DNA from: a virus
Virus record (IMG/VR): IMGVR_UViG_3300040801_002256
Location: 1 to 37,929 of that record
DNA length: 37,929 bases
Strand: one strand, 5' to 3'
Shown: positions 8,798 through 37,254 of the stretch, one piece after another
How the letters are laid out: each line of letters opens with the position of its first letter
Position numbering within the stretch: position 1 is the stretch's first letter
The notes under the pieces: model-generated
What the model saw: the letters and a program-made list of their open reading frames with translations, nothing else
Database searches by the model: none
Told to the model about the DNA's origin: nothing
Made by a program: the position numbers and the translations under genes

Positions 8798-8988
8798 TGG
8801 CGGGTCGTCCAAGAAAAGTGAAAACTGAAAATGATAAAATTCGCGACCTTATTCGTGAGCAAGTAAATATTATAGTTGAAAATGCCAAGCTTTTATCAAC
8901 AGGAAAATTAAGAAATACTTTTTTTCTTGAAAAAGCAGCGCGTGAACTTACGCGGCTTGAGGGTGAAATTCAAAAATCCAATAATTAA
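8794..8988 (+). CDS. Small basic protein with AT-hook-like N-terminus, 64 aa
   Basis: The N-terminus MMAGRPRKVKTEND contains GRPRK, the core of AT-hook DNA-binding motifs, and the rest is one or two charged helices. The ATG at 8794 (or 8797) directly follows AAAAGGGGGG and overlaps the exonuclease stop. The 3' end overlaps the convergent acetyltransferase gene by 41 bases. Function unknown; DNA binding is inferred from the motif only. Confidence 0.6.
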   Translation: MMAGRPRKVKTENDKIRDLIREQVNIIVENAKLLSTGKLRNTFFLEKAARELTRLEGEIQKSNN

Positions 8989-9376
8989 AATCATCGCCAA
9001 CCCATTTCCATTCAGGTTCATAACAGCGAAAACCTTGATCGATTAGATTGTTTGCGCTTGCGTGGTTTTCCCTTGATGTGTAAGTGATAACGCATTTATA
9101 TCCTCGTTTTCTAGCGTGCCGAATACGAACTTCAATAAGTCTTTTGTGTATCCCTTTGCCTCGACAGGAGAAAATAACACCGGCCCTTGCGAGGAACAAA
9201 AAACCGCCTGTTGATTCACTGGCAATTGCAAAGCCCACTGGTCGCCGTGACCTGTTGTAAGCAGCCCAATAAATAATTTCTGGTTTTTCATCATAAAATT
9301 CTTCACCTGGAAAACATTGTTCATGCAATTGTTTTATTGTAGCAATATTTTGGGTTTTTCTGATGGCAAAATACAT
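8948..9376 (-). CDS. GNAT-family acetyltransferase
   Basis: 142 residues with a GNAT fold. The acetyl-CoA pyrophosphate loop is CRGKGIHKRLI (71-81, pattern R-G-K-G) after strand GVIFS, and ENHASANNLIDQGF (103-116) is the usual motif B helix. The substrate is unknown: a small molecule, host protein or a phage-modified base are all possible. It is transcribed against the rightward early operon, with a 41-base overlapping 3' end, and diverges from the nuclease gene at 9456. No strong ribosome binding site precedes the ATG at 9374-9376. Probably a morphon-like accessory gene. Confidence 0.82.
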   Translation of the reverse strand: MYFAIRKTQNIATIKQLHEQCFPGEEFYDEKPEIIYWAAYNRSRRPVGFAIASESTGGFLFLARAGVIFSCRGKGIHKRLIEVRIRHARKRGYKCVITYTSRENHASANNLIDQGFRCYEPEWKWVGDDFNYWIFEFHPQAA

Positions 9377-9455: not shown

Positions 9456-9839
9456 ATGTCAAAAGGATTTGGCGAATTGTGCGAAATGGAATTTTGTTTA
9501 CGCGCAATGAGGCTTGGCCTTAGAATAAGCCGTCCCATAACAGAATCAAAATATGATGTTGTCGTTGATAACGGCAAAAAACTTTTGCGCATTCAGGTAA
9601 AAGCAACGCGTTCAGTTATTCGTCGTCACGGTTATGGTGTCATGGTTTCCTATGGGAAAGATTCAAAAAAAGTTTACAATAGTTCACATATTGATTTTTT
9701 TGCAATATTTATTGAACCTGTTGATGTTTGGTTTATTGTGCCGGTTGATTTTATTAATTGCTCAAAAATTACTTTTTCACCAGGTTCAAAAAAGTCAAAA
9801 TATGCGCCTTATGAAAATGCTTGGCATTTAATCCAATGA
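9456..9839 (+). CDS. PD-(D/E)XK endonuclease-like protein
   Basis: A 127-residue protein with the PD-(D/E)XK core: conserved GELCE (6-10) with E7 on the first helix, the acidic strand KYDVVVD (D34), and LRIQVKAT (Q47, K49) where Q-x-K replaces E-x-K. This resembles the PDDEXK_5 group that includes I-Ssp6803I, and also resolvase-like folds. It could be a free-standing homing endonuclease or a junction/repair nuclease; no intron is visible next to it. It is the only rightward gene near the late region, and its 3' end overlaps a structural gene by 12 bases, suggesting later insertion between early and late modules. Confidence 0.75.
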   Translation: MSKGFGELCEMEFCLRAMRLGLRISRPITESKYDVVVDNGKKLLRIQVKATRSVIRRHGYGVMVSYGKDSKKVYNSSHIDFFAIFIEPVDVWFIVPVDFINCSKITFSPGSKKSKYAPYENAWHLIQ

Positions 9840-10559
9840 GAAATCAACACCACAAACGTCATAACCATCTTTTATTTTGTAGATTTTACGCCCTGTTGGT
9901 AATGTAAAATCAACAGCAATGTAAAATGTCGCGCGGTTTTCAACTTTTAATAACGGCGTTTCTGATTGTTGTAATTTAATTTTTATCTGACCAGTTCCCA
10001 CTACTTCAATTGAATCAACTACTTCATTTTCGCCCTCGGTCGTAATGGAAAAGGTGAAATTTGTTGAAAAGTCTTTTATCTCTTCAACTTCACCAGCGAC
10101 CGCATTTGTCACTGTTACCACCTCATTAAGCCTTGTTGCGCTGAAAGCCGCTTGGTTATCAATAGCGACTCTTAAAGCTTCGGCAACGTCATTTGCCACG
10201 TCATTTTCAGAAATGGCAACTTCAACGATTGTGGCGCCAGAAACAACAGGCGGCGAACCGGCGGCATCAACACTGAACCAAAAAGCAAAAACGCCAGTGG
10301 TTGAATAAATTAAAAAATAACGCGAAGCAAGCGACGAATTTACATCAGCAAGACACGTTATATCTGTAATTTGAGCAATTGCAGTTTGCTCAAGTTTTTT
10401 TATAAGGTAGTCTTTTTGTTTTGGGTGAATTGATTGAATTTCGGTTGCGGTTGAAACGTCTATTGCTTCACCAGTGTTTGCATTTAAAAGCGTAACGGTA
10501 AGCTCTTTTCTTTCACCTTGAACGATTTGTGGTATTTTTTTACATTCGTCAGCACTCAT
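9828..10559 (-). CDS. Fibre-region structural protein with inserted repeat domain
   Basis: A 243-residue protein in two halves, a beta-rich frame (about 8-60 and 180-243) split by a domain at 63-177. That domain is clearly related to residues 132-247 of the baseplate J-like protein (shared ADV..SL, ..YF.I, VD..GS.P, ANDVA.A, VVTVTN, DF.T.F.ITT.G). The frame itself (GERKELTVTLLN, GRKIYKIKDGYD) looks like an Ig-like virion domain. It starts after AGGGGTTATAA and overlaps the next gene upstream by 11 bases. It is the last gene of the late operon. Likely a tail-fibre or virion surface protein; exact role unknown. Confidence 0.6.
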   Translation of the reverse strand: MSADECKKIPQIVQGERKELTVTLLNANTGEAIDVSTATEIQSIHPKQKDYLIKKLEQTAIAQITDITCLADVNSSLASRYFLIYSTTGVFAFWFSVDAAGSPPVVSGATIVEVAISENDVANDVAEALRVAIDNQAAFSATRLNEVVTVTNAVAGEVEEIKDFSTNFTFSITTEGENEVVDSIEVVGTGQIKIKLQQSETPLLKVENRATFYIAVDFTLPTGRKIYKIKDGYDVCGVDFSLD

Positions 10560-19419: not shown

Positions 19420-20013
19420 TTAACTTGTAAAAACAAATAAAACCTTAGTATGTGCTGGTTTTAATTTTTCAAAAGTGCATTCCAACGCTTCATTTCCAAG
19501 CTCAAGTAACCTATCACCAGCGCGACCAGCGCCAGCAAGAAAAGGTGTTGATAAATCAGCGGGCGCCGTTACTTGAAACCAAAAAGTCCACTCTTCATTA
19601 GTCAGCGCGTCACCAGCGCGACTCCTACCCGCTTTGAATGGAAAAAAGTCATTAACAGACACATCGAAGCCCAAATTTTGTGCAACGAGTTCAAAATACG
19701 CGCGACTTGAACCGCCAGTATTCGTTAATTTAAAAACAATTTCTTGGCGTCTTTTTTCAATACCAGCACCAAGCTCTGAGCATTCATCAGGAAGCGCAAG
19801 CGCACTTTCCCAATCAGTAAGTAATTCGCTTGTTTTTCTTGGGTCGCGCTCAACCAGCATTTGATCAAGCCTTTCTTGAACGCGCGAAAATTCAACGGCA
19901 AGACCTTCAATAAGTTTTGAAAGATTTGTATTTTCAAGCGCCCATGCTTTTCCTCTTGGAAAAAATCGGCGCAATGAATTTGCAAATTGCTCAATTACAC
20001 TAGTGGTTGCCAT
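19420..20013 (-). CDS. Mu gp48-like baseplate protein (DUF2313)
   Basis: 197 residues of the Mu gp48 (YmfQ/DUF2313) family, which ends the baseplate gene set and connects the wedge to fibres. Recognisable parts are the N-terminal helix with LRRFFPRGKAW (14-24), the helical ERLDQMLVERDPRKTSELL, WESALALPDEC, and the C-terminal ..AHTKVLFVF. The start ATG overlaps the end of the gp47-like gene by 19 bases. Length is normal for the family. Confidence 0.88.
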   Translation of the reverse strand: MATTSVIEQFANSLRRFFPRGKAWALENTNLSKLIEGLAVEFSRVQERLDQMLVERDPRKTSELLTDWESALALPDECSELGAGIEKRRQEIVFKLTNTGGSSRAYFELVAQNLGFDVSVNDFFPFKAGRSRAGDALTNEEWTFWFQVTAPADLSTPFLAGAGRAGDRLLELGNEALECTFEKLKPAHTKVLFVFTS

Positions 20014-21488
20014 GTTATTGTTCCAAGTTCAATTAATTCGCCATCGGTTGTTGGTTCAACATTTGCTGGTGTCAAACTGTTTATTGTAACAATTTCATGA
20101 TCGTCTTCACCATTTGCCCTTGAAATTGCTTCACGAATTCTTGATAAAAGCAAAACGCCGTCATGCGTTTCTGATGGTGATTTATAAGCGCCACGCGGGT
20201 TTGCATCTCTAAAAATTAAATCACGCAATTCATTTGTAGCGGCATCACGAACGGCTTGGGTGTTTGGTTTTATTTTTACCACCAAATCAACCGTTAATGG
20301 TGTTGGCGCAAATGCTGTGACCTTTGCCGTTACTGGCCTAAAGTCCCTGGCGTCTAATGTGTTTTGCATTTCTTGAACTTTTGCAATATCAGGAATGATA
20401 TCGCTTTCATTATCTTCAACGAAAGTCACTCCAACGGTTCCAGTTCCTTCGCCCTCAAAATTAGGATAAACCCATGCGCGGGTAACACCGGCAACGCTTA
20501 ATGCTTTTTGCTCATAGTCATTAACGTCACCGCCCGATGGTGGTCTTTGAATTCGCTGTAAAAGCCTTGCTCTAAAATCATCAATTGTTTCAGTGTTTTC
20601 ACCTTCAACAGTCGTTGCGACAACTTCGGCTTGTGATTGAACACCGGCAATTGAAGCAACAATTGTTAAAAATTCACCATTGTCAACATTTCCAGATTCA
20701 CCACCATTTTCGGCAACAACATCAGCAATGGCCTCAACGTCCACTTGGTCAACACCTTGTGTTGTAATTGTTATTGAAAAGCCTGTTGTGAAGTCCGTGG
20801 CATCCTCAACCGCGCCAACGTCATCATTTGTAACGGTCACAACATTTGTTGAAACCGTAACCGTTAAATCCGTTGCGGTGTCAAGAATTGCTTGTGTAGC
20901 ACTTGCCACATCGTTTGCCGTGTCGTCTTCACCAATGTCAACTTGAACCGAAGTTTTTCCAGTTAAATTTGGGTCACTTCCATTGCCATCAACGCGGTAA
21001 AAAACAACGTATTCGATTTCTGGTGAATTAATGAAAAAATAAGTTCCGGCAAGTGATTGCGCAACATCGGCAACGGTTGTAATTTCTGTTACTTCAGAAA
21101 CGCCAGTTACCGGCGCGGGAATTGTCGCCTCGGCTTGTTGGGTAAAAATTTCCCCTTGATCATTTTGCCATTCAGTGCCAGCGGGAATAATTGCGCCTTG
21201 ATCACCTAAAATTTTAATTTGTAATTCTGCTTTTTGCGCTGGCGTTGGTTCAAGACCAAAAAGTTGACCCCAAATTAAAATGGTTTCATCATCGGCTTGC
21301 GCTGTTGGTAAAAGGTTTTTAGAAATAAAATCAAGATTTCCATGTAAGACATGGGATTGACCAGCAAGAGCGCGAGAAATTGCGCCTAAAAAAGTGCGTC
21401 TTAATATTGTATTTATCCCTAAAATAGAACGTATGTCACCGCGTATGCGGTCAATTATTTGTTGAAGTGTAGGCCGTTGTAATGGCAT
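19995..21488 (-). CDS. Mu gp47-like baseplate J protein with inserted domain
   Basis: A baseplate wedge protein of the BaseplateJ family. The start is the ATG at 21486-21488 (MPLQRPTLQQII), preceded by GAGAGGGTAAAA. Typical features are the N-terminal RIRGDI..., GTEWQNDQGEIF.T (105-117), the GNVDNGEFLTI region after 266, and DDFRARLLQRIQRPPSGGDVNDYE. Between the two halves of the usual domain there is an added ~115-residue module (132-247), which explains the length of 497 residues compared with ~370 for plain Mu gp47. The same module is found in the gene at 9828. Confidence 0.9.
   Translation of the reverse strand: MPLQRPTLQQIIDRIRGDIRSILGINTILRRTFLGAISRALAGQSHVLHGNLDFISKNLLPTAQADDETILIWGQLFGLEPTPAQKAELQIKILGDQGAIIPAGTEWQNDQGEIFTQQAEATIPAPVTGVSEVTEITTVADVAQSLAGTYFFINSPEIEYVVFYRVDGNGSDPNLTGKTSVQVDIGEDDTANDVASATQAILDTATDLTVTVSTNVVTVTNDDVGAVEDATDFTTGFSITITTQGVDQVDVEAIADVVAENGGESGNVDNGEFLTIVASIAGVQSQAEVVATTVEGENTETIDDFRARLLQRIQRPPSGGDVNDYEQKALSVAGVTRAWVYPNFEGEGTGTVGVTFVEDNESDIIPDIAKVQEMQNTLDARDFRPVTAKVTAFAPTPLTVDLVVKIKPNTQAVRDAATNELRDLIFRDANPRGAYKSPSETHDGVLLLSRIREAISRANGEDDHEIVTINSLTPANVEPTTDGELIELGTITWQPLV
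20748..21095 (-). other. Inserted mobile-looking domain inside the baseplate J protein
   Basis: Codons 132-247 encode a module (TEITTVADVAQSLAGTYFF ... FSITITTQG) inserted after GTEW....Q.TIPAPVTG. Its copy at 10029-10373 shares the same order of motifs: ADV..SL, YF.I, F..VD..GS.P, V.V.I.E.D.ANDVA.A, N.VVTVTN..G.VE, DF.T.F.ITT.G. I judge about 35-40% identity by eye. A beta-rich adhesion-type domain is likely. Confidence 0.65.
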
Positions 21489-21490
21489 TT

Positions 21491-21943
21491 TTACCCTCTC
21501 TTGATTTTCTGGCCATCCCAAATGAAATCAAAACTTGTATTTTCGCCGCTTGGCTTTGTGATCTCAATTTCAAGCAAAAGTTGACCAATTTTAGGATAAG
21601 TCGCAACCACCGAAATGTCACTTGCAACACCATCTTGAATAAGCCAGTCAAGAGAGTTTTTTGCAAATCGTTGGTAGCGCGGCAAGTCACTGGTCAATTG
21701 TTTTCCAGAATCAAGTAACCACAATTTTGAACCGATTTGATCGCCGTCAAAATCAGGAAATAAATCACCCCACCAACCACGGCGTGATTTTTGTCCTTGT
21801 GGCAATTCATCAACTTCAACACGTTGATCGGTAAAAAGCGAAATAATAACAGCCGTTTCAAGTCCATCATCAGCTTTAAGATCGCCATTTTCAATTTTTA
21901 AATCAAAAATATTATTTTCGTAAAAAAGTCCTATGTCATTCAT
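21491..21943 (-). CDS. Mu gp46-like baseplate protein
   Basis: 150 residues of the gp46 family. The N-terminal half has DLKIENGDLKADDGLETAV and ISLFTDQRV; the family signature RRGWWGDLFPDFDGDQIGSKLWLLDSGK is at about 54-81. The C-terminus (TSFDFIWDGQKI) is the usual strand. It precedes gp47 with a three-base gap, as in Mu. Together with gp47 it forms the baseplate wedge. Length is typical. Confidence 0.92.
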   Translation of the reverse strand: MNDIGLFYENNIFDLKIENGDLKADDGLETAVIISLFTDQRVEVDELPQGQKSRRGWWGDLFPDFDGDQIGSKLWLLDSGKQLTSDLPRYQRFAKNSLDWLIQDGVASDISVVATYPKIGQLLLEIEITKPSGENTSFDFIWDGQKIKRG

Positions 21944-27582: not shown

Positions 27583-29052
27583 TTAGAGTAAAAATTGAAT
27601 TTGCGTTGCGGTAACTCTTAACTGATTTACCAAATCAGGCGGTAGTAAGAAGTCAAGACGGTTCGGGTCTGTTGAATTTCTTTCAACAATCAGATCATTT
27701 TTAAATTGCTCACCACCTTCAACAAGTCCTAGCTCTTCCCATCCACGGAAAATTGAAACTGCTTCAGCCTTTGCCGCAAGTGGTGTCAAGATCGGTTGAC
27801 CAGGGGCAATTCTTGCCCCATCACTTGCCAATTTATGACGTGGAAATTTTCTTAAAAATGTATTTCTAAAATCAAATCTTAAATAACTTAAAGTTAAAAG
27901 CGTATTAAGATCAAGATAACTTGTGTCAGGCGCTCCAAAAGCATTTGTTTTGTAAGTTGTAATTAGTCTTTCAATTCTTACAATCCCACCATCATCAACA
28001 AAGCTTGTAGCAATACCATTTGATAAAAGTTGATTTCTTTCACTGTTTGTAAAACGCTCACTTGATTTTGGCGCAAGAATTTCTGGAATCTCAAGAGTTT
28101 GAAAAGGTCTTGCTGGGTCAATTTGACCATTTAAAGCAACAACACCACAAACCGAAGCGGCTTTTTCCCATGGTGACATAGGCCCATTTGCTTCAAGAAC
28201 TATTGTAAATTGAGAGTTTCTGGCATTTCCAAGTCCAGTAAGATCAGAAAAAGTCCCTCTTTTACCAGTAATTGCATAACCATCATTTTGTCTTAAAGGC
28301 CCAAAACGATCATTAAGCTCACCTTCAAGTTCAGTCAAGTTTGATGCGTCAGTATAAGGGTTTGCAATAATGTTGTATTGAGTTTCATCAAGAACAGCAA
28401 TTGCACTTGCAATATCAGGATTTGCAACACCGCCAGTCATGTCAGTGATTGTTACACCAACACCAGCGGGCAATTCCTCGCCATCAAAATAATTTACTCT
28501 AATATCAATTTCATTTCCGGCTTCACCGCCGTTTTTTGCTGTTAAATCAACCTCGTTTGCATTAACGCCATTTACCGCCGCCGTTACTGGTAAATCACTT
28601 TCAGCGGCAAGGTCAGCTTGAACAGCACTTGCAATATCGTCAGCGCTGTCACCACTTGCAACCGCAACACGAACGCGACGACCGCCAATCATAACAGAAA
28701 CAACACCGGCTTCAGTCGCGGGGCCAGTAAAAGCAAGTTTTCCTTCAGCGGCAACCGCTGAACCATCATCATCAAGAGGTAATGCAAAAACTTGATTAAC
28801 TTTATTTGCATCAAGAAATTTTTCAAGCATGTGAGCAAGCATTGAACCCGCACCAAAATATTGTTTTGCTTGATCAACTTGCGTAATTTGTTGAAGCTCT
28901 AAAGCTGGCTTTGTTCCAGCGGCAAGCTTTTGACCCAAAACAAGAACTTTATACTCTTGTAACGATGGGCCTTGAACCGCGCGTGAATTGTCGAATTCAA
29001 CATAAACAAACGGCACCCTTTGATTGTTTGGTATTTGATTAAAAGAAACCAT
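27583..29052 (-). CDS. Mu gpL-like tail sheath protein
   Basis: 489 residues, similar to Mu gpL (495). N-terminal strand PFVYVEFDNSRAVQGP, a ~100-residue outer domain around residues 105-205 (GGRRVRVAVASGDSADDIASA), the core LDETQYNIIANPYTDAS, and the C-terminal TTYKTNAFGAPDTSYLDLNTLLTL with RHKLASDG. The C-terminal strands handshake between subunits during contraction. It overlaps the small DUF2635 gene (TAATG). This protein proves a contractile, myovirus-type tail. Confidence 0.95.
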   Translation of the reverse strand: MVSFNQIPNNQRVPFVYVEFDNSRAVQGPSLQEYKVLVLGQKLAAGTKPALELQQITQVDQAKQYFGAGSMLAHMLEKFLDANKVNQVFALPLDDDGSAVAAEGKLAFTGPATEAGVVSVMIGGRRVRVAVASGDSADDIASAVQADLAAESDLPVTAAVNGVNANEVDLTAKNGGEAGNEIDIRVNYFDGEELPAGVGVTITDMTGGVANPDIASAIAVLDETQYNIIANPYTDASNLTELEGELNDRFGPLRQNDGYAITGKRGTFSDLTGLGNARNSQFTIVLEANGPMSPWEKAASVCGVVALNGQIDPARPFQTLEIPEILAPKSSERFTNSERNQLLSNGIATSFVDDGGIVRIERLITTYKTNAFGAPDTSYLDLNTLLTLSYLRFDFRNTFLRKFPRHKLASDGARIAPGQPILTPLAAKAEAVSIFRGWEELGLVEGGEQFKNDLIVERNSTDPNRLDFLLPPDLVNQLRVTATQIQFLL

Positions 29053-34341: not shown

Positions 34342-37254
34342 TCACCAAAAATCTGATTTTTTGCGAGGTTTTCGCGCTTTTTTTACAGTTTTAGTTTCAT
34401 TTTTACCCACTTCAATAGGTTGTGCAACCTGTTTTTCAACTTCACGCCAATCGCCATCGGAAAACCTATCAATACCAATCATGCTTGCCGCAGCGCGATT
34501 GTAAACCATCAAGTCAAGAGGTTCATTTCTTTCGCGAATTTTTATCCATTCATATTTGCGATAACCCTTTATGAATTTAATTTGAATCTCTTCAGCGGTA
34601 AGACCTTTAAAAAAGTCCTCGCCGTATTGTGGAAAGTGACAATAACCAACAGGAAAAGATTCGTTACCAGTGGGTTTTAATTGTTTAAGCCAGCCATAAA
34701 TTTCAGATTTAATATGTGATGAACCAACAGTCCATAATTTTAATGCACGACGCATTTTAGTTCCAGAATAACTTAAATCAACATCTTTTGGTTGCGAATA
34801 AATAAGTCTTAAAGTGTCCGAACCTTTTATGGCCCTCACTCGGTTTGGTGGGAATTGGCGAACAAAATTATAAACTGTTTGCGTGTTGTAACCAGAATCA
34901 ATCAGCATTAATTGAATTCCCATTTGCACCTGGCCCTTTTTCCAGACATTAGATAAAAGCCCACTTACTTGTTGCCAACACCAATCTTGCGTATTTGAGG
35001 TGTCGCCAACAAAAGTACGGTAGTCAATTGACCAAGAATTTTTATCCTCGCCCCAACCTTTTATTTCAACTTCAAGTCGATCTCTTTGAACATCAACCGC
35101 CGCCGTCAAAAATTTGACACCATCAGGAATTGTATTGATTTCATACTGCTCACGGTTTTCATAAAGTCGTCGCCATTCAGGCGCTTCGCCCTTGTCTTTC
35201 CATGTTTCACCAAGAATTGTGTTTACAAAAGTTTTTAATTTTGATCTGTCTTTTCTTTTGTTGGCGTCAATCCATTCTTCAGCAATTTCTTGCCAAGAAA
35301 GCCAGCCCATGGGTGAATAAAGTGAATTTAAATGATAACCAGCAATTTTTGATTCGGCCTCTGCTATCCATTTTCCACGCGCCAACATAAATGACTTGTT
35401 ATGTTCTTTTATTTCTTCACCGCAATGAGCGCAAAAATAAGCGGCGGTTTCTGGTTTGTCCTTATCCCATTTTAAATTAGTAAATTCTAATTTTTGATAT
35501 TCATTACAATGTGGACAAGGAACGTGATAATAGCGCTTATCACTTATTTCAAATTGTCTGGCAATTCTTGAAGTTGATTCATCAACCGGTGTTGAAACCA
35601 AAAAAAATTTTTTCCTTGAAAAAGTGTTCGCACGTTTTTTTGCAAGGTTTACAGGGTCACCCTCACCGCCCGAGTCACCTGGAAAAGCGTCAACCTCATC
35701 AAAAAAAACTCTCCTAATGGGAAGTGATCTTAAATTTGTTGGAGAGTTTGCACCAACGATGGCCAGATAACCACCAATAAATTGTTTTAGGTTTATGGTG
35801 TTCCCTGAGTCGCGCGACTTTTTTTGCATTACTTTTTTTCTTAAAGATGGCGTTTCCTCAAGTAATGGGTCAATTCTTATTTTTGAATTCTTTTTTACAA
35901 TCCCATCTGTTGGCAAAACCATCATTGTCGGTGCTGGTGAATGATCTATGATGTAGCCAAGCCAGTTATTGCCGCATTCAGTATTGTGAGTAGCAATAAA
36001 AGAATTTGAACATAAATAAAGATGACTTTCAGAATCAACAGAAATGCATTGCGTTGGAATTGAATTGATCTTTTCAACATTTACAATGCGTCTTTTTTTA
36101 GTTTCTGAAATTCTACCCTCTTGTTTTTGTTTTTCGTATTTTCTTTTTAAATTAAAAACCCTAATCCCAAAAACTGTAAACGAAATACGCCACTTAGTTT
36201 TTGGTTCACTTTTTCTTTCAAATTTTTCACGATCTTTAAAATGCCCGCTATTTGAAATGGCCTCATAAACTGACGCTTTAATTCCAAGCGACATTAAAAG
36301 CTCATAAACACCTTTAAAAAGAGGTTCATCAACCGTTGAAAATTCACAACGGTTATTACTTATTGAACCGTCAGAATCCATAAGACCGCGCAAAAGCTCA
36401 AGCCTTTGCTTATAGCTTGCGCGTAAATATTCTTGAGGAATTGATTTTTGTTTTAAGTTACCGCTTAACCTTAATTCTGTGCAAAAACCATCAAAAAGAC
36501 ATTCGACACAATTTTGAGAATCATCACGAACACGAACTTTTCTATTTATTTTTTCTAATATTTCAGCAGAGTCATCTTTATTTAAATAACAAATGCCAGT
36601 GTGTCGATTGCCATCACCAAGCCAAATACCAAAATGATAAGGGTCAATAGGCAGTTTTTTCTTTTTTGTTTTTATTGGTTTTGAAGCTTCAATTGCATAT
36701 CTGTTTCTGGTTTTTTTGCGTAATACTTTAAATGTTTTGGCAATTTCTGAGGTTTTTAATGTAACAAGTTTTCTGTGTTCATATTTTTTTTCATCCCAAA
36801 CAGTCCAGCGATGGTCAGCATCACATTTTATTTTTGTCCCATCATTAAATGTAATTTCAAAGCAATCATGATTTTCAAATATTTCTGATTTAAAAGTGAC
36901 GTTGCAAATATTTCCGTTTTCATCAAAAATCTTGTCGCCAATTTTAATTTTACCCATAGTTGACCAACCATCAACCGTTGGAATTTTTTCATCAAGCGCC
37001 AATGCAAAACCAAGCTGCGCACCTTTCATAACAACAACCTCTTGTGTTTCGTCATGATCGGAAAGCTTGTCCATGATTTCTTTTAAATATGGCGTTCGAC
37101 TTGTTCGCCATTTACCAGGTTCAGCACTTGATTTTGTTGTTAAAACCCTGTTTTGATCTGACCATTCAGAAACGGTAAGGCGTTTTTGTGGTTTTATTCC
37201 CAACAGTAATGGTGTTAAAAATGATTGCTTAATATCGGCAAGGCTATTCGTCAT
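34342..37254 (-). CDS. Large terminase subunit (GpA family) with intein
   Basis: 970 residues as translated; removing residues 84-424 leaves 629, close to lambda gpA (641). The N-extein ends KGAQLGF and the C-extein begins TECGNN: together the P-loop KGAQLGFTE. Further ATPase motifs: Walker B VFFDEVDA (D519/E520) and motif III VSTP (553-556). A Cys4 zinc finger lies at CPHC (580-583) and CAHC (608-611). The C-terminal nuclease domain has AAVDVQRDRLEVEI and LIDSGYNTQTV with catalytic-type aspartates. The ATG overlaps the small terminase gene by 11 bases. It cuts and pumps DNA into the head. Confidence 0.95.
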   Translation of the reverse strand: MTNSLADIKQSFLTPLLLGIKPQKRLTVSEWSDQNRVLTTKSSAEPGKWRTSRTPYLKEIMDKLSDHDETQEVVVMKGAQLGFALALDEKIPTVDGWSTMGKIKIGDKIFDENGNICNVTFKSEIFENHDCFEITFNDGTKIKCDADHRWTVWDEKKYEHRKLVTLKTSEIAKTFKVLRKKTRNRYAIEASKPIKTKKKKLPIDPYHFGIWLGDGNRHTGICYLNKDDSAEILEKINRKVRVRDDSQNCVECLFDGFCTELRLSGNLKQKSIPQEYLRASYKQRLELLRGLMDSDGSISNNRCEFSTVDEPLFKGVYELLMSLGIKASVYEAISNSGHFKDREKFERKSEPKTKWRISFTVFGIRVFNLKRKYEKQKQEGRISETKKRRIVNVEKINSIPTQCISVDSESHLYLCSNSFIATHNTECGNNWLGYIIDHSPAPTMMVLPTDGIVKKNSKIRIDPLLEETPSLRKKVMQKKSRDSGNTINLKQFIGGYLAIVGANSPTNLRSLPIRRVFFDEVDAFPGDSGGEGDPVNLAKKRANTFSRKKFFLVSTPVDESTSRIARQFEISDKRYYHVPCPHCNEYQKLEFTNLKWDKDKPETAAYFCAHCGEEIKEHNKSFMLARGKWIAEAESKIAGYHLNSLYSPMGWLSWQEIAEEWIDANKRKDRSKLKTFVNTILGETWKDKGEAPEWRRLYENREQYEINTIPDGVKFLTAAVDVQRDRLEVEIKGWGEDKNSWSIDYRTFVGDTSNTQDWCWQQVSGLLSNVWKKGQVQMGIQLMLIDSGYNTQTVYNFVRQFPPNRVRAIKGSDTLRLIYSQPKDVDLSYSGTKMRRALKLWTVGSSHIKSEIYGWLKQLKPTGNESFPVGYCHFPQYGEDFFKGLTAEEIQIKFIKGYRKYEWIKIRERNEPLDLMVYNRAAASMIGIDRFSDGDWREVEKQVAQPIEVGKNETKTVKKARKPRKKSDFW
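35983..37005 (-). mobile_element. Class 3 intein with LAGLIDADG homing endonuclease
   Basis: A 341-residue intein occupies residues 84-424 of the terminase ORF. It starts Ala (ALALDEKIPTVDGW), not Cys or Ser. It carries the class 3 W-C-T set: W150 in block B (DADHRW), C403 in block F (TQCISVDSESHLYLC), and T423 before the terminal N424 (ATHN). The +1 residue is T425. The endonuclease motifs are FGIWLGDG (208-215, D214) and LLRGLMDSDG (287-296, D295). Both domains look intact, so splicing and homing are likely. The insertion point is the middle of the terminase P-loop. Confidence 0.9.

Follow-up and report, generated by a model that had tools for sequence, protein, structure and literature searches.

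A ~115-residue insertional beta domain in unrelated virion proteins of uncultured phages and its apparent insertion into itself

The finger of T4 gp11 and the inserted domain of T7 gp12 are single fixed copies, each in one protein, and flagellin and FliD carry nested outer domains on a filament. Ig-like domains of phages are usually appended to their proteins; Fraser is said to have described them in 2006 as promiscuous. Domain I of the T4 sheath protein gp18 (PMC3004832) is an inserted beta domain that contains a helix and points outward; it has no contacts with the rest of the sheath but binds the baseplate and the retracted fibres; domain I is nested in domain II, which in turn is nested in domain III. 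Additional sheath domains, some of them formed from two regions of the chain, are treated by Evseev and colleagues (PMC9230969), who suggest adhesion or stability as their role. A census of inserted domains from 2026 (PMC13114784) gives the six-level nesting of cyanobacterial RNA polymerase as an example of complexity.

The domain described here, called the module below, is read as a ~115-residue insertional beta domain slotted into unrelated virion proteins and into itself, with a probability of roughly 0.78 for this reading as a whole. With the outer domain of contractile sheaths (PF17481, Phage_sheath_domII; phages Milano, A-1(L) and 7-7-1) it shares the fold over nearly its whole length, insertion in a host protein and a weak sequence link to its second half, but it forms a distinct sequence family, has many non-sheath hosts and appears to be self-nested. 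Domain I of T4 gp18 (PMC3004832) is a possible parallel, as the module too is an inserted beta domain with a predicted helix that may point outward and, in nested arrays, would lie inside an inserted domain; the nested layers of gp18 are different domains, whereas those of the module would be copies of one. The SI3 insertions of the cyanobacterial RNA polymerase (PMC13114784) are likewise recursive, many levels belonging to one motif family, but they sit at one locus in a cellular enzyme, whereas the module is viral and occurs in many proteins; its deepest array, L005, would have eight levels against the six of SI3. Phage Ig-like domains resemble the module in being optional and common to unrelated virion proteins, but they belong to another sequence family and, judged from the predicted model, probably to another fold, while the module is inserted and apparently nested. 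New here are an unnamed insert domain, whose fold is already known, and its apparent recursive self-insertion.

The window, i.e. the whole stretch of DNA analysed, is a virus record of 37,929 bases. It was judged to be a Mu-like myovirus from its gene content, which includes a GpA-type terminase with an intein, a sheath, a GpP-like hub, J and Gp48. Two full module copies, F and J, were found in it, both in frame and both on the minus strand:

9828..10559, minus strand: ORF of a 243-aa fibre-region protein; the module flanks are residues 1-61 and 177-243, of unrecognised family
10032..10376, minus strand: module copy F, residues 62-176 of the 243-aa protein, boundaries from the final profile
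19995..21521, minus strand: baseplate J-like protein (PF04865, E 6.2e-48; phrog_6, E 1.2e-54), split by the module
20754..21095, minus strand: module copy J, within the baseplate J protein

A PD-(D/E)XK endonuclease-like ORF on the plus strand (9456-9839, E 2e-15) adjoins the gene of the 243-aa protein, and a GNAT acetyltransferase-like ORF (8948-9376, E 6.6e-8) lies near it. An intein that contains a LAGLIDADG endonuclease (E 2.3e-9) interrupts the large terminase gene (34342-37254); judged by eye, the first residue of the intein is apparently alanine, rather than cysteine or serine.

Residues 59-180 of the F protein align by BLASTP with residues 139-260 of J, ungapped over 122 residues of which 52 are identical (43%; 79.3 bits, E 2e-21). 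Scored without composition adjustment, the pair reached 99.8 bits, against a maximum of 32.7 over 1000 shuffles of the smaller protein. The homology of the two copies is established by these figures, and with it the claim of an earlier, sequence-only reading that a fibre-region protein and baseplate J share a domain of ~115 residues; the boundaries in the final profile differ from those first given by two codons at most. Similarity between the copies is significant by profile and by sequence, and no differing folds were seen, the J copy having been folded and the F copy being one row of its alignment. The same reading had the module interrupt a recognisable host domain in both proteins. This holds for J, where module-free J proteins run straight across the site; a host domain in the 243-aa protein was recognised neither by Pfam, nor by PDB sequence search, nor by phage tblastn. 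Its flanks matched no family in Pfam or the PDB sequence search, and no module-free relative of the whole protein was found in phage records (tblastn, E 1); judged from these flanks, the module likely interrupts a host domain here as well.

Insertion into J is directly visible in the J proteins of Bordetella phage PBb001 and Pseudomonas phage PG1, which have unbroken host sequence across the module site; an ORF of Paraburkholderia phage IPK likewise lacks the module. The site lies between '...ATI.A' and '...V.A...G..GN', a hairpin by appearance, and the much diverged J proteins of L030 and L031 carry the module at the same place as the J of the window. A clean empty site also exists for the head-tail adaptor of L019, whose host sequence is continuous without the module in phage ctuI7215. 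The phrog_2175 family uses two sites, one near the N-terminus (L040, L111 and L114) and one about 70 residues later (L099 and L101, L099 having been assigned to the family by clustering with other carriers, not by PHROGs). An empty site was not obtained for the sheath of L010, whose relative in Rhizobium phage RHph_TM39 has a different sequence there, nor for the phrog_290 host, for which phages gave just a partial relative. A second repeat-like stretch was observed directly before the module, at the same J site, in L030 (3323-5425) and L031 (3-1775).

The host proteins were assigned by a scan of 48 carrier entries against PHROGs (47 distinct, L101 repeating L015):

contractile sheath, phrog_23: 6 carrier entries
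minor tail protein, phrog_290: 6 carrier entries
baseplate J, phrog_6: 4 carrier entries, plus the J of the window
'Ig domain' protein, phrog_2175: 5 entries, 4 of them distinct
head-tail adaptor, phrog_40/442: 3 entries
major-tail-like, phrog_584, inside large proteins: 3 entries
structural protein, phrog_399: 2 entries

The remaining 19 entries gave no match, a module-only match, families of uncharacterised role, or weaker tail-fibre or head-decoration families (e.g. L116). By these assignments the module is hosted by at least seven unrelated recognised virion protein families, and its spread over unrelated hosts is established. Sheath carriers form one cluster (7 of the 84 module ORFs); most carriers, including the J and F proteins of the window, are not sheaths.

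No Pfam family above cut-off was found at the module position of F or J, where the PF04865 match of J overlaps the module end. Over 51 isolated module copies Pfam gave scattered matches, each confined to one or two copies (best E 0.003), and PHROGs gave weak matches to the sheath family phrog_165 in 14 of the 51 (best E 2.2e-4). An open-access literature search returned no description of the module or of its self-nesting. Judged from the profile searches, the module is an unnamed family of its own, without a Pfam name, that has a known fold. Single-sequence hints from the PDB (an endo-glucosaminidase at E 0.22, FapF at 0.55) were dropped, as the profile and fold searches point elsewhere, and a match to the carbohydrate-binding module 4v17 (E 0.1) was too weak for use.

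Successive IMG/VR scans gave 4 loci, then 44 and 44, plus two new contigs. The module is present in about 77 further IMG/VR contigs; a viral scan for which F was the sole query found no relative. The core set comprises 84 module ORFs on 77 loci including the window, with re-fetched loci removed and L005 and L006 being one contig; L118 and L120 are counted on top of it. Repeat fetches of known contigs (L052-L081) were left out, L015, L018, L024, L036 and L039 were replaced by the re-fetches L101, L095, L083, L110 and L090, and near-identical contigs (L012/L013, L043/L046/L047/L048, L019/L021 and others) were kept in the counts. Among 50,697 phage records, tblastn with the F and J copies found no module relative at E 1e-3. 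The statement of the earlier reading that similar modules occur in other environmental phages holds here for metagenomic contigs. Two scans of genome contigs from 84,980 species matched 57 and 111 stretches with no relative among them; these scans work from short peptide patterns and are no proof that bacteria lack the module.

The module of J was predicted by AlphaFold2 from the 51 aligned copies with a mean pLDDT of 97.1 and a pTM of 0.90, as four strands, a helix and three strands. The best matches among solved folds are sheath outer domains, namely those of cyanophage A-1(L) (Z 9.6, 96 residues, 3.3 A), phage Milano (Z 9.4, 101 residues, 3.0 A) and PhiTE (residues 86-178, Z 8.7); T4 gp18 is not among the fold matches listed. 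The module is also like the finger of T4 gp11 (residues 78-191, Z 7.7) and the inserted domain of T7 gp12 (Z 7.6) in fold. Flagellin (best Z 7.8) and FliD (Z up to 6.3) match with their D2/D3 outer domains at Z 4.6 to 7.8, which is the range of common arrangements; unlike the module they are cellular, and no sequence link to them appears among the Pfam families listed. Foldseek against the PDB gave nothing at or below E 1e-3; its strongest match was Phage_sheath_domII at E 3.3e-3 (probability 1.00). Against predicted viral proteins 19 matches reached E 0.001, the strongest at 1.9e-14; one of the 19 is an uncultured phage protein labelled 'Baseplate protein J-like'. Deposited sequences thus already contain the module, though under no name that is specific to it. 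The best predicted-structure match is A0A481YRU0 (TM 0.93, 37% identity), filed under Marseillevirus LCMAC101, which may be a misassigned phage contig.

The sequence-only reading had named two copies. A weak third relative, absent from it, was found in the tail sheath of the window:

27583..29052, minus strand: tail sheath protein (phrog_165, E 1.2e-180), PF17481 domain II being residues 96-198
28537..28689, minus strand: weak third relative, second half of the module, in the tail sheath outer domain

This relative sits within PF17481 domain II (matched by the sheath at 7.3e-8) and was detected at E 3e-5 and 2.8e-5 with the profile of F and J, and by hhalign with a probability of 48%. The flagellin IN motif PF07196 reached E 0.33 in the sheath and was not among the listed matches of the 51 module copies. 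It could be supposed that the module is an ordinary contractile sheath outer domain, duplicated from the phage's own sheath; the fold matches and the weak link to phrog_165 and to the sheath of the window speak for such an origin. J and F, however, are far nearer to each other and to the modules of other phages (best 50.9% and 45.4%), just the second half is detected in the sheath, and PF17481 is not among the 25/26 families listed for the 51 isolated copies at E up to 1. An origin in the phage's own sheath is accordingly considered decidedly improbable. Descent from a promiscuous phage Ig-like domain by divergence would explain the same optional occurrence in non-homologous virion proteins, and one host family even bears the name 'Ig domain' (phrog_2175). 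No Ig-family model is among the 25/26 Pfam families listed for the 51 copies, however, the predicted fold has a helix between strands, its best matches are not Ig, and antibody domains appear in Foldseek at E 0.76 or worse, which leaves this proposal barely credible.

The evidence for insertion of the module into itself comes from the order of its halves. The module profile was cut in the loop that follows strand three, and each ORF was read as a word of N and C halves. Among the 84 ORFs, 62 read NC, nine NCNC and four NCNCNC, while nested words were found in single ORFs: NNCC in L027 (within a sheath; 2+2 N and C halves), NNNCNCCC in L044 (4+4) and NNNNNNNNCCCCCCCC in L005 (8+8). The words are balanced in 78 of the 84 ORFs, and two of the six unbalanced ones are cut by contig ends (L104 and the second ORF of L026). 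As to the other four, a second N-half of L033 was seen in another search, L007 has an apparent truncated N-half at residues 294-329 (by eye), L034 an apparent truncated N-half with the whole-module profile match starting at position 18, and L042 an extra N fragment of 14 residues. Nested arrays occur at five loci (L005, L007, L026, L027 and L044). Of 2498 reversed ORFs none was matched by a half profile, and the sheath of the window was the sole match in ORFs that lack a full module; as the loci had been fetched by whole-module similarity, lone halves elsewhere would escape. The balanced order is itself an observation. Insertion of the module into itself at one loop, with the halves paired in the manner of brackets and as many as eight levels in L005, is supported by a mirror test, by a foreign domain split at mirror positions and by a structure prediction.

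In L005 each N(i) joined to C(9-i) gives a single match of 65-122 bits over nearly the whole profile, which is expected from the parts and weak alone. The distances among N-halves and among C-halves correlate in mirror order with r 0.79, a value reached by 0.54% of the 40320 pairings, against -0.08 in direct order; without the innermost pair r is 0.53 (p 0.048), and without the innermost and outermost pairs 0.59 (p 0.049). A foreign domain, X, is present in two pieces, one between N2 and N3 and the other, at the mirrored position, where the C-half of layer 3 is followed by that of layer 2. The joined pieces match two contiguous places in L016, weakly (E 2.5e-5 and 3.5e-5), a score reached by one of 1000 shuffles. 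The sheath encoded by L016 (1-3237) is 1079 aa long; it holds two modules and no fewer than two copies of the small domain X.

For the nested pair of L027, strands and helices were predicted in nested order with middling confidence (pLDDT 73, pTM 0.53), from an alignment with almost no rows for the outer halves. A sheath outer domain aligns to residues 8-249 of this model with just 91 residues (2.1 A), a spread consistent with a discontinuous outer module, and the inner copy (residues 51-170) is where other chains align. Sequence order and prediction agree here with recursive domain insertion (A1-B1-C-B2-A2), in which the inserted domain is itself a host.

Were each half a small domain in its own right, with duplications of its own, the balanced order would be coincidental. 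The runs of halves in L005 and L007 and the few truncated N-halves (L007, L033 and L043) would suit this, but it is very unlikely in view of the equal counts in L005, L044 and L027, the lack of lone halves outside module ORFs save in the sheath of the window, the mirror test, the split X domain and the nested L027 model.

Resolution is poor in a tree of 80 full module copies, with 12 of its 77 inner branches starred, which leaves the count of transfers uncertain. The tree requires 22 host changes, the minimum possible being 9 and the mean for shuffled labels 51.9; this clustering by host points to much vertical descent after insertion, alongside transfer. The clearest gene-to-gene transfer is suggested by the adaptor copy of L019, which falls among phrog_290 copies in a 95-starred set; its identity to the module of L012 is 68.6%. 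The best relative of J is in L086 (50.9%) and that of F in L094 (45.4%), while J and F are 43.9% identical; each is thus nearer to copies of other phages than to the other, by a small margin for F. A recent duplication within the phage was rejected, as neither copy is the other's best match; separate acquisition or an old duplication is likelier, the tree being undecided. The description of the domain as mobile, made before any database search, gains support from the many non-homologous virion hosts, from the two sites in one host family, from the adaptor copy within the phrog_290 set and from the self-insertions, which require insertional events.

The clean fit into host loops and the fold suggest that the two ends of the module are adjacent, which would allow insertion into an exposed loop without breaking the host fold. 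A domain with ends close together would fit the tip of a hairpin and, its own loop being such a tip, could host itself. Among the acceptors observed are the sheath, baseplate J, the head-tail adaptor and an Ig/tail-tube-like protein, as well as, within the module itself, the loop that joins strands three and four; repeated insertion into this loop would build nested stacks of N-halves followed by C-halves. In the phage of the window the module would decorate J and the small fibre-region protein, with a distant relative in the sheath outer domain. It is moderately probable that the domain spreads within and between phage genomes via loops of virion proteins, and that recursion at one fixed loop builds outward stalks, that of L005 having eight modules and one foreign domain.

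Exposure on the virion surface is plausible from the likeness to outer sheath domains, the gp11 finger and flagellin outer domains, and by analogy the module may point outward and act as a spacer, docking or adhesive surface. From fold and position, a putative contact with the outside (cell surface, glycans or flagella) is given about even odds, and a putative docking or stabilising of other virion parts is a more doubtful proposal. Less probable still is a neutral decoration, in which the insert persists as a harmless passenger without function of its own. Optional presence, hairpin-like sites and self-insertion are compatible with a passenger, but the copies keep a common core, roughly 30-50% identical to the window's copy across hosts, and no stop codon was found in the module among the places listed, which together suggest selection.

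In uncultured phages the module could serve as a sequence marker of virion-protein loops that are exposed, and it illustrates how a virion surface may be rebuilt with one portable insert. A natural case of recursive insertion within one family would make its origin, depth limit and folding accessible to study, and if the module does bind cell surfaces, it would be a transferable adhesion element of environmental phages.

Two further arrangements were observed. Contig L120 (3-7233) carries one module each in three different virion ORFs, and L043 (2425-3840; also L046, L047 and L048) encodes a 472-aa protein that consists mostly of three modules in tandem.
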